A DNA stretch of 64,000 nt, taken from assembly GCA_026014615.1 (NCBI GenBank), contig JAOZHZ010000019.1:62001-126000 (forward strand). The letters run 5' to 3'. The stretch comes from Candidatus Bathyarchaeota archaeon. GTDB lineage: Archaea > Thermoproteota > Bathyarchaeia > Bathyarchaeales > Bathycorpusculaceae. Made by a program: the position numbers and the translations under genes. The notes below the pieces were generated by a model. That model saw only the letters and a program-made list of their open reading frames with translations. It made no database searches and had not been told where the DNA came from. This document shows, in pieces, positions 5,397-61,118 of this stretch (position 1 is its first letter; every line of letters begins with the position of its first letter).

Positions 5397-5520
5397 CCTT
5401 TTTCTGCCTTTTACAGCCGTTTCTAGCCTCTTTCAGCCTTTCCTAGCCGCAAGTTACGTCCAAATTAAACGCTGAATTGGAAAAGCAACCCAAAACGGGC
5501 TTTACAGAAAAGGGGGAGGG
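5397..5520 (+). repeat. dispersed intergenic repeat, copy A
   Basis: First of four copies of a sequence of about 125 bases. The left half is a pyrimidine-rich tandem array of about 10-base units ending in GCC (TTTCTGCC, TTTACAGCC, TTCTAGCC, TTTCAGCC, TTCCTAGCC). The right half has CCGCAAGTTACG, AAACGCTGAATT, GCAACCCAAAACGGGC, ACAGAA and a G-run followed by AGGG. It lies between the convergent ends of the kinase and P-type ATPase genes and has no coding potential. Confidence 0.85.
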
Positions 5521-5545
5521 TAGACAAAAAATGGCGACAAAAGAG

Positions 5546-8765: not shown

Positions 8766-8887
8766 GTGTTGCCAGCTTTCCCGGGTTCTCGCGGCCGAAG
8801 ACCGCAATACAGCAGGGAACGGAGCACGGTTTAACTTCCGAGTTCGGAACGAGATCGGGTGGAACCCGCGCCCTATGACCGGCAAAC
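8766..8887 (-). rRNA. rrf: 5S ribosomal RNA
   Basis: Read on the minus strand it contains the hallmark GAACTCGGAAGTTAAAC of 5S rRNA, preceded by CCACCCGATC and followed by GTATTGCGGTC. The ends TTGCCGG and CTGGCAA pair to form helix I, which fixes the borders to within a few bases. About 120 nt. It stands alone; no 16S or 23S gene is in the window, so the 5S is unlinked from them here. Confidence 0.93.
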
Positions 8888-28023: not shown

Positions 28024-28150
28024 CCCTTTCCTGCCTTTTCCCGCCAGTTATAGCCTTTTTCAGCCTTTCCTAGCCGTGAACTACGCCCAAACCAAACGCA
28101 GAATTGAAAAATCAACCCAAAACGGGCACTTCACAGAATAGGGGGGTAGG
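28024..28150 (+). repeat. dispersed intergenic repeat, copy B
   Basis: Second copy of the family described at 5397. It has the pyrimidine array (TTTCCTGCC, TTTTCCCGCC, TTATAGCC, TTTTTCAGCC, TTTCCTAGCC), then TACGCCCAAA, AAACGCAGAATT, CAACCCAAAACGGGC, TTCACAGAATA and a run of six G with TAGG. It lies between two minus-strand genes, AIM24-like and MscS. Confidence 0.85.
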
Positions 28151-37130: not shown

Positions 37131-37269
37131 CTACCGCCCCCCTATTCTGTGAAGAGCTCATATTGGGTTGCTTTTTTGATTCTGCGATTGTTTTGGGCTT
37201 AGTCCACAATTAGGAAAGGCTGAGAAAGGCTAGAAACGGCTGGAAAAGGGCAAAAACTGGCAAAAAGGA
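37131..37269 (-). repeat. dispersed intergenic repeat, copy C (inverted)
   Basis: Third copy, in the opposite orientation, in the 347-base divergent region between the XPF-type nuclease and the pilin-like gene. Read on the minus strand it has TTTTGCC, TTTTCCAGCC, GTTTCTAGCC, TTTCTCAGCC, TTTCCTAA, then AAGCCCAAAAC, TCGCAGAATC, AAAAAGCAACCCAA, TTCACAGAATA and a run of six G. A TATA-like CTTAAAAG at 37341 serves the pilin gene. Confidence 0.83.
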
Positions 37270-37378: not shown

Positions 37379-38485
37379 ATGTTTGCTGCTGTTAAATCAA
37401 GAAGGGCTTTGACGCCAATACTTGGGACCTTACTTATCATCGTGATAGCGGTAGCAGCCATCGCGGTAACTTACTCTTGGATATCCACCAGTGTAGAAAA
37501 CACCACGCAACAGGCAGGCGTGTTCCTGTACACAGCCAACGTGGCCTTCTACCCCGACGAGATTAGAATAGATGTAGGCAACTCTGGAACATCAGACGCA
37601 GAGATTCTGGCGGTTTATGTTGGAGTTATTCGGTCAAGCCTTGAAAGCCAAACGTTGGCGTCACCAGTTCAGGTTAAGGCAGGGGAAATCGCCAGTTTCA
37701 ACATCACATACAATTGGGAACCGCAGGCAATTTACCAGTTTAAAATCGTATCCACAGCTGGGCAGCAGGCTTTGACTTTCCAAGCTCAAGCAAGAGAAGC
37801 AGCACCCAGACCCAGCACATCTCCGACACCCACACCAACCCCGACACCCACACCAACCCCGACACCCACACCAACCCCAACCATGCAGGATGTGACGTTT
37901 GCCGTAAGCGGCTTAGAAAATTTCTCAGGTGGAATTGTTCTGACAATAGACGGTGTCGAATACGACTACTGGATGTTGCCTTGGAGAACTTTCAAGTGGC
38001 TTTCAGGTTCCACTCACACGGTGGTCGCGTCCACGCCCCTTAAAGGTTGGGATGACCACATCTTCAGGTTCTCTAGTTGGACAAACGGCAACGGACTAAA
38101 AGAAGCATCAGGCACATTCACCGTGCCCTCCTCTGACACCACAGTTACAGCAAACTACGTTAAAACAAGCGTCAGGGTAACGTTTGCCACAAGCACTATG
38201 CCAACACTCAGCGACGGAGTAGTCCTCACCATCAACGACGTCGGATACAACTATTACGACCTACCTTCAACACATTTCATCTGGGAAAAGGGGTCAACAC
38301 ACACCGTGGCGGCTTCAACTCCACTCACAGGCTGGGACCACACAGTATACACGTTCAATAACTGGACAAACGGCAACGGACTAAAAGAAGCATCAGGCAC
38401 CTACACAACACCAAACGTAGACGCAACCGTAACCGCAAAATACAAGTCTAAAACGCTCACGGAAAACCCACGTTACCTACCTTAA
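37379..38485 (+). CDS. pilin-like surface protein with two repeated beta domains
   Basis: A 368-residue exported protein. The N-terminus SRRALTPILGTLLIIVIAVAAIAVTY is the archaeal type IV pilin signal: basic residues, then a hydrophobic helix cut by prepilin peptidase before Ala. A DUF1628-like pilin domain follows, then a Thr-Pro linker of 18-base units, then two homologous domains of about 90 residues (STHTVVASTPLKGWD and STHTVAASTPLTGWD; FSSWTNGNG and FNNWTNGNG) resembling InlB B-repeat or PEGA-like surface modules. The start is ATG 37379, nearly leaderless relative to the TATA at 37341. Thr-rich linkers are likely O-glycosylation targets for the PMT enzyme of this window. Confidence 0.75.
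   Translation: MFAAVKSRRALTPILGTLLIIVIAVAAIAVTYSWISTSVENTTQQAGVFLYTANVAFYPDEIRIDVGNSGTSDAEILAVYVGVIRSSLESQTLASPVQVKAGEIASFNITYNWEPQAIYQFKIVSTAGQQALTFQAQAREAAPRPSTSPTPTPTPTPTPTPTPTPTPTMQDVTFAVSGLENFSGGIVLTIDGVEYDYWMLPWRTFKWLSGSTHTVVASTPLKGWDDHIFRFSSWTNGNGLKEASGTFTVPSSDTTVTANYVKTSVRVTFATSTMPTLSDGVVLTINDVGYNYYDLPSTHFIWEKGSTHTVAASTPLTGWDHTVYTFNNWTNGNGLKEASGTYTTPNVDATVTAKYKSKTLTENPRYLP
37823..37876 (+). repeat. three tandem 18-base units (Thr-Pro linker)
   Basis: CCGACACCCACACCAACC occurs three times head to tail and encodes the Thr-Pro linker of the pilin-like protein. Such repeats can expand or contract by slippage. Confidence 0.85.
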
Positions 38486-38584: not shown

Positions 38585-38659
38585 TGCGGTTGCCGGGATT
38601 TGAACCCGGGTCATCAACGTGGCAGGCTGAAGTCCTAAACCAGACTAGACTACAACCGC
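38585..38659 (-). tRNA. tRNA-Gly (anticodon GCC)
   Basis: On the minus strand GCGGTTG pairs with CAACCGC as acceptor stem with discriminator A. D arm GTCT/GGAC, anticodon stem TCAGC/GTTGA with loop CTGCCAC (anticodon GCC), and T arm CCGGG-TTCAAAT-CCCGG are all present. 75 nt, no intron, CCA not encoded. The T-loop TTCAAAT and GTCTAGTCTGGTT D-loop are typical of archaeal tRNA-Gly. Confidence 0.96.
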
Positions 38660-38847
38660 ACTCGCTTTGTCGATTACAGCCTGACTCTACCAGACCAACA
38701 CCGTGACCAAGCTGGTCAAATACGTGGTTTTCTGGACTTGCTACTGCTTTAGATGACACTCTGTCATTAAAAGGTTTTTGACCCAAACTGAGCTGAAACT
38801 AGGTATAAGCCACAATTCGGCTACAATAAGAAAAATTCTGTTAACAG

Positions 38848-38914
38848 TTTTTCTTTACACAAGAAATCTTTACAAACACGCTTTTAGCTAAGTTGAACCC
38901 ATAATTACCTGCAG
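38848..38914 (+). promoter_or_regulatory. conserved promoter of surface protein 1
   Basis: This block is almost the same as 40266-40330 upstream of the next gene. Shared parts are TTTTCTTTACACAAG, TTTACAAACA, GCTTTTAGC (TATA-like, about 33 bases before the ATG) and AAGTTGAACC. No Shine-Dalgarno sequence lies before either ATG, so both mRNAs are probably leaderless or nearly so. CTTTACA occurs twice within the block, suggesting a repeated operator. Confidence 0.6.
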
Positions 38915-40255: not shown

Positions 40256-40265
40256 CTTTGATAGA

Positions 40266-40330
40266 TTTTCTTTACACAAGTAACGTTTACAAACAAGCTT
40301 TTAGCCAAGTTGAACCATAATTCCCTGCTG
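40266..40330 (+). promoter_or_regulatory. conserved promoter of surface protein 2
   Basis: Second copy of the block at 38848-38914. Identity continues to the start codon (CTGNNGATGGNTATG in both), which decides the start of the second gene at 40331 instead of the TTG at 40310. Confidence 0.6.
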
Positions 40331-60997: not shown

Positions 60998-61118
60998 TTG
61001 CCTTTTCCCGCCTTTTTCCACCGTTTCCAGCCTTTTCTAGCCGCAAGTTACGCCCAAATCAAATGCTGAATCAAAAAAGCAAACCAAAACGGGTGTTACA
61101 GAAAGGGGGGAGGGGAGG
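60998..61118 (+). repeat. dispersed intergenic repeat, copy D
   Basis: Fourth copy of the family at 5397. Pyrimidine array (TTTTCCCGCC, TTTTTCCACC, GTTTCCAGCC, TTTTCTAGCC), then GCAAGTTACGCCCAAATC, AAATGCTGAATC, GCAAACCAAAACGGG, TTACAGAAA and a G-run with AGGGG. It lies between two minus-strand operons of the cobalamin salvage cluster. Confidence 0.85.

Follow-up and report, generated by a model that had tools for sequence, protein, structure and literature searches.

The window, by which we mean the whole stretch of 64,000 nucleotides analyzed here (G000:C29:62001-126000), comes from the draft genome of a Candidatus Bathyarchaeota archaeon (genome G000; 2.63 Mb in 29 contigs, 88.8% complete, 7.4% contamination) and contains four copies of an element of about 120 bases, each made of a pyrimidine array of 10-bp-phased units (CCTTTTCTAG in this genome), a conserved core and a G-rich tail. 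On the forward strand, copy 1 (G000:C29:67405-67523) has its array at 5398-5449 and its core and tail at 5450-5523, copy 2 (G000:C29:90032-90150) at 28024-28076 and 28077-28150, and copy 4 (G000:C29:122999-123117) at 60998-61043 and 61044-61117; copy 3 (G000:C29:99135-99243) lies on the reverse strand, with its array at 37209-37268 and its core and tail at 37135-37208. The original prediction, made from the letters of the window, had placed all four within a few bases of these positions and on these strands; it was right about the pyrimidine array but missed the 10-bp period, and the array extends to the left of some of the starts that it gave. Rfam, at its gathering threshold, yields a 5S rRNA and one tRNA from the window and matches none of the copies, in keeping with the claim that this is not a described RNA family. 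The 5S rRNA gene (8767-8886, reverse strand) is the only rRNA gene in the window; near the tRNA gene (38585-38659) are two 59-base copies of a second, unrelated repeat (38841-38899 and 40258-40316, 86% identity), and 18-base tandem repeats (37800-37871) lie inside a 373-aa open reading frame (ORF) beside copy 3.

The block AAAGCAACCCAAAACGGG, with up to three mismatches allowed, occurs four times in the window, compared with 0.13 occurrences expected from shuffled sequence (none of 100 shuffles reached four). A BLASTN search of the genome with one copy as query returned 44 matches at E ≤ 10. We then searched the genome at E ≤ 1 with R1, a model of sequence alone made from 29 copies, the kind of profile search that had been proposed as a check for further copies. 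Of the 54 matches obtained, 41 are strong copies (61-106 bits) and 3 are weak; another 8 are array fragments adjoining strong copies, and 2 are marginal. The family is thus dispersed across the genome, as predicted, and relatives carry counterparts too. Its density is one strong copy per approximately 64 kb, which makes the window, with four copies in 64 kb, locally rich; the figure of one per 16 kb, or hundreds per genome, was an overestimate. According to a simple greedy ORF heuristic, 36 of 44 copies in this genome are free of overlap with any ORF of at least 80 aa. The genes on either side of a copy are convergent in 14 cases, tandem in 12 and 7, and divergent in 11, all three arrangements having been anticipated, and the copies are divided evenly between the strands (22 and 22). 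We found no orientation rule for the copies, and a terminator or promoter tied to the flanking genes was rejected for want of orientation bias. Among 83 flanking proteins in G000, no recurrent neighbor gene emerged other than common families, which had three members at most.

In the orientation in which the element was found, the consensus runs from CCTTTTCTAG-like units through CGCRGGTTAAGCCCAAATCAAACGCWGAATCAAAAAAGCARCCCAAAACGGGC to CAGAAAAGGGGGGAGGGTAGA. Self-matching of the G000 arrays peaks at lags of 10, 20 and 30 bases (0.40, 0.38 and 0.34, against a median over lags of 0.27), and that of the arrays in G028 peaks at the same lags (0.51, 0.49 and 0.46, median 0.30); lag 10 is also the highest in the arrays of G006 (0.34) and G002 (0.33). 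In 35 copies drawn from nine genomes, positions 5, 15, 25, 35 and 45, where the units have their C, carry 1.6-1.7 bits. Two other accounts of the array were dropped: a reading frame through the G028 arrays (TAG stands inside the G000 units) and DNA curvature (several gene-borne arrays keep the 10-bp phase without A-tracts). Many G028 copies have an extra conserved stretch to the left of the array carrying CCCCCCTAGGTAGGGG, within which GACCCCCCTA forms an inverted repeat with TAGGGGGGTC in the tail; GACCCCCCTA lies near one end of these copies and TAGGGGGGTC near the other, with conservation continuing past both. Two core variants are found side by side in G028 copies.

When neighbors of copies from other genera were compared, one ORF of 88-97 aa recurred across genera, at several loci. 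In many of the relatives that carry the element, the start codon of this gene (approximately 92 aa) directly follows the array, so that the element, reversed, is the leader of the gene; read on the opposite strand, the gene-bearing order is C-rich tail, core, array of about 4 to 10 boxes at 10 bp, and start codon. We therefore consider it very probable that what relatives carry as the leader of this gene family is the counterpart of the element, a correspondence that the original prediction missed, the family being absent from the window. In the 36 gene leaders belonging to the stronger of the 68 protein matches listed, lag 10 is the highest in 29, compared with 5 of 62 control upstream regions; phased direct repeats are therefore found upstream of the family's own gene. 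In 10 of these 36 leaders the motif AAGCTTA, which may be promoter sequence, occurs 65-112 bases ahead of the start; a looser, hand-made expression fits 19 of the 36 and 6 of 41 gene-less (solo) copies in G000, and the evidence from these motifs is weak.

To survey the class we used a broader element model (R2, built from 35 copies, E ≤ 1e-4) and a protein profile (A5, E ≤ 0.001) on 256 genomes. R2 finds the element in 41 genomes, many of them with only one or two matches; because scoring was limited to 13 candidates per genome, high counts are to be read as 'at least'. A5 matches 37 genomes, of which 22 carry the element, and 19 of the 41 element-bearing genomes have no protein match. At E < 1e-15, 20 of 23 genomes with the protein carry the element (Fisher p = 1.3e-15; 13 of 14 by genus), a result that speaks for the identity of leader and element more than for independent co-occurrence, because the two models were trained on some common genomes and the gene, by bringing its own leader along, accounts for much of the co-occurrence. 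An exact core pattern occurs in 35 named stretches, 23 from Bathyarchaeota (including bog_990, bog_991, DYS_6, fen_992 and Chersky_322) and 12 from other taxa as single matches, compared with a chance expectation of about one at even base composition, and a higher one for a pattern that is A-rich. Our searches of the open-access literature, a coverage outside which most subscription journals and preprints fall, listed no account of such a system.

In the genus of the window, six of seven genomes have the element, and the smallest (G005) has neither element nor protein. G001, G002 and G006 each have one intact gene, which in G002 and G006 is not preceded by a clear array. G004 has a frameshifted remnant only, in two frames, indicating that solo copies are retained in at least one relative that lacks an intact gene. 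Profiles A5 and A6 did not find the gene in G000 or G003; the weak matches there were rejected as the gene, and we take them to be VapB-type antitoxin frames with a PIN-like neighbor. Either the G000 gene lies in an unassembled part of the genome or solo copies outlive the gene. That it was not found in the G000 assembly lowers our estimate of the functional claims made below but not that of the identity of the element as a leader.

By eye, the protein appears to consist of two AbrB-like halves. Its profile matches PDB entry 2glw (PhS018 of Pyrococcus horikoshii) with E = 2.9e-5; the matches to AbrB and MraZ chains are weak (E = 0.07-0.17). An AlphaFold2 model of modest confidence (pLDDT 62, from two sequences) retrieves 2glw with Foldseek as the sole match below 0.001 (E = 2.7e-4; TM score 0.72 by target, 0.53 by query). 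The match ranked sixth, to MraZ on its four-box promoter, is without significance (E = 0.17). Pfam, PHROGs and NCBIfam give MazE, AbrB or antitoxin matches that are weak or below cut-off, together with unrelated weak ones: TIGR01439 (AbrB) matches the G001 protein at 2.4e-5, below its curated cut-off, and MazE matches one member protein at 1.8e-4, also below cut-off. Profile similarity and the predicted fold thus assign the protein to the AbrB/PhS018 (swapped-hairpin/RIFT) superfamily, and its kin are DNA-binding rather than catalytic proteins. Neither Pfam (MraZ, E = 0.03 for 1 of 20 member proteins) nor PDB profile matches (MraZ, E = 0.13-0.17) place it in the MraZ family.

Array units vary between many gene copies (for example, TTGACANNNN, NNGTCTTGAA, AAAGTATGNA, TGCGTTTANC and GCGCCTNNTT), and a few sister copies have common units (L336 with L338). 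We compared 20 gene-less copies (10 from G120, 8 from G119 and 2 from G116) with 28 gene-borne arrays, and for 17 of the 20 the top-scoring array came from a gene copy in the same genome: all 10 G120 solos scored best against L348, 5 of the 8 in G119 against L342, and both in G116 against L337, one of these being nearly tied (21.5 versus 21.0). Arrays of other genomes gave the top scores for the remaining three G119 solos; judged by eye, these three are similar to L341 of G119, which scored second, third or outside the top three. The 41 G000 solos were assigned to L337 (18), G028 or G103 arrays (13), L342 (8) and elsewhere (2), none of these assignments being decisive. The match between solo and gene-borne arrays could reflect descent rather than recognition.

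We compared the positions of copies between G000 and G006, a single-contig genome that is the nearest to G000 by one protein (86%). Fifteen of 26 G006 copies have a neighbor gene on the same side and strand as a G000 copy (both genes beside copy 4 of the window also flank G006 copy 401660), and one further copy shares a neighbor only on another side. In comparison, 9 of 136 intergenic sites in the examined G006 stretches share a neighbor gene and 4 more do so otherwise, a generous control because these stretches were chosen for synteny. In G002, 9 of 37 copies share a neighbor gene with a G000 copy. Many copies in the genus of the window are therefore old. Orthologous copies are nonetheless no more alike than others (identity 0.694 for 11 hand-chosen orthologous pairs versus 0.685 for 110 non-orthologous pairs; permutation p = 0.24), and G000 copies are more similar to one another (0.618) than to G006 copies (0.526). 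This pattern fits homogenization in the G000 lineage, where slower decay is also possible; in G006 homogenization is not seen (0.515 within the genome versus 0.526 to G000). Recombination or gene conversion may have homogenized the copies.

Three G006 copies unite the left neighbor of one G000 copy with the right neighbor of another. The copy at G006 676176 corresponds in this way to C8:317966 and C8:245821, the intervening 72 kb being absent there, and the end of that segment (302-318 kb) adjoins copy 948683 instead; G006 1344660 joins the left neighbor gene of window copy 3 (C29:99135) to the right neighbor of C1:21443; and G006 178750 combines C17:185174 (in G000, about 740 bases separate this copy from the start of the flank match) with C17:160273. 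In G002, the outer neighbor of C2:311781 and pgk, which is the inner neighbor of C2:309110, meet at copy C9:202307, as would result from a flip of the pgk-gap segment that lies between this inverted pair. The pgk-gap genes (L164, L165 and L143) lie between two inverted copies in G000 as well as in G006, and beside a copy in G002 the segment seems to be inverted. Breaks without copies also occur. Misassembly of draft genomes is a possible cause of swapped junctions, but the repeats are short and approximately 80% alike, and G006 is one contig.

On balance we favor, as somewhat probable, the reading that the element is a solo, gene-less control region of a PhS018/AbrB-class gene that is bound genome-wide and recombines. 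The protein would bind its own array with one subunit or repeat per helical turn, so that successive boxes are occupied on one face of the helix, and, by analogy with MraZ, would repress its own gene through that array; the same protein would coat the solo arrays scattered between genes, and these would serve as chromosome-wide docking or transcription-damping sites. Recombination among arrays would homogenize the copies, create the swapped junctions and leave rearrangement breakpoints. Separate steps of this scheme differ in strength. Binding of the arrays by the cognate protein is likely; a chromosome-wide role kept by selection falls just short of an even chance in our estimation. Still more tentative, and rather doubtful to us, is the idea of a self-addressing cassette, in which gene and phased operator duplicate without a known transposase, diversify a protein-array code and seed tens of long-lived solo docking or recombination sites that evolve concertedly and shape chromosome order. 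With respect to the three functions guessed in the original prediction, the DNA-protein site (nucleoid or regulator) is now favored, a structured RNA is disfavored, and the mobile element was partly right.

MraZ proteins have two AbrB-like repeats and bind boxes spaced 10 bp apart. MraZ regulates itself and represses its own cluster by way of conserved boxes that precede the dcw genes, and its site in Mollicutes consists of direct repeats of AAAGTG[T/G] (PMC8475190), which resemble the units AAAGTGCA and AAAGTATG found here. In Mycoplasma genitalium the motif is described only at mraZ (PMC8475190), whereas we find tens of solo arrays per genome. PhS018 (RIFT barrel, 92 aa) is the best relative of the protein by sequence and fold, and the available portion of the article covering it mentions no function or operator array (PMC11258233). 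AbrB and cyAbrB2 belong to the same superfamily as the protein by weak matches; cyAbrB2 has been proposed to be a nucleoid-associated protein and is reported to bind AT-rich regions broadly (PMC11368403), not dispersed copies of its own operator. The stoperators of cluster A mycobacteriophages are like the present element in being many dispersed repressor sites, with a consensus that tracks the cognate repressor (PMC6550527). They differ in being single short asymmetric sites in the genome of a phage, with one predominant orientation relative to transcription. We know of no fold relation between their repressor and the protein studied here.

An alternative that we regard as unlikely is that a selfish mobile cassette of approximately 450-500 bp, comprising leader and gene, spreads by some unknown route, and that solo copies are dead or non-autonomous remnants without host function. 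Gene-plus-leader units do recur in relatives: G116, G119 and G120 have multiple gene copies, and in most of the matches listed the DNA that they have in common reaches from the tail to shortly beyond the stop codon (-130 to +280 and -169 to +275 around the start are examples), although some pairs match further (L341 of G119 and L347 of G120 over 2 kb, at an orthologous site), and several of these copies are broken by stops or frameshifts. A start-codon-like remnant follows the array in 3 of the 20 solos, G006 788715 has an empty counterpart site in G000, as has G000 C3:22254 in G006 (at both, divergence of the intergenic DNA is too great to fix the ends of the element), and the lack of both element and protein in G005 points the same way. 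Against such a cassette, no transposase is found among the families matched by at least two of the 83 flanking proteins, the protein is related to DNA-binding rather than catalytic proteins, and many positions are common to species. Neither clean terminal inverted repeats nor a target duplication are apparent by eye in G000, the left end of the element being too fuzzy for a good test. REP elements are likewise dispersed, intergenic and linked to one gene, RAYT, which encodes a Y1 transposase; here there is no hairpin, and the Y1 family (PF01797) has no match in G000 (88.8% complete) compared with 5 of 14 control genomes, so that a Y1/RAYT origin was rejected. Carriage by viruses or plasmids was rejected as well: viral contigs contain no exact match of one DNA pattern, the 37 pattern matches found in such contigs include no relative of the protein among what they encode, and one member protein has no match among phages or plasmids.

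It is quite improbable that the element is a chromosome-organizing or recombination site unrelated to the protein, which the gene family captured as its leader. Common positions and swapped junctions would suit such a site, as would a slight trend toward even spacing of copies (P = 0.056 in G006 and in G000; 0.28 in G002), but the 10-bp phase is kept even where gene copies have different array motifs, solos resemble the gene-borne arrays found in the same genome, and the orientation of copies follows no rule. A transcribed small RNA or intrinsic terminator is very improbable, because, although archaeal polymerase can use T-rich tracts for termination and the array contains such tracts, RNAalifold predicts no consensus pairs on 29 copies (the ground on which we rejected an RNA element, and with it the earlier suggestion of a transcribed RNA), Rfam has no match at the copies, and their orientation to flanking genes is inconsistent.

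Should the arrays be bound in the way that we favor, copying the operator of one small repressor would have made a chromosome-wide system of sites, and a site family would be linked to genome rearrangement in a major uncultured lineage. The array motifs that vary between gene copies of one genome would provide a test series for the splitting of such a code and for the upkeep of likeness among dispersed sites. The loci L287 and L288 (G100 and G019) are near-identical across families, and L281 and L037 (G092 and G028) across genera, reflecting either recent transfer or mis-binned contigs. Copies L088 and L046 (G006 2049816 and 2441183) are 92% alike over 279 bases, reaching approximately 180 bases past the array, a likeness that reads as a tract of recent copying or conversion.
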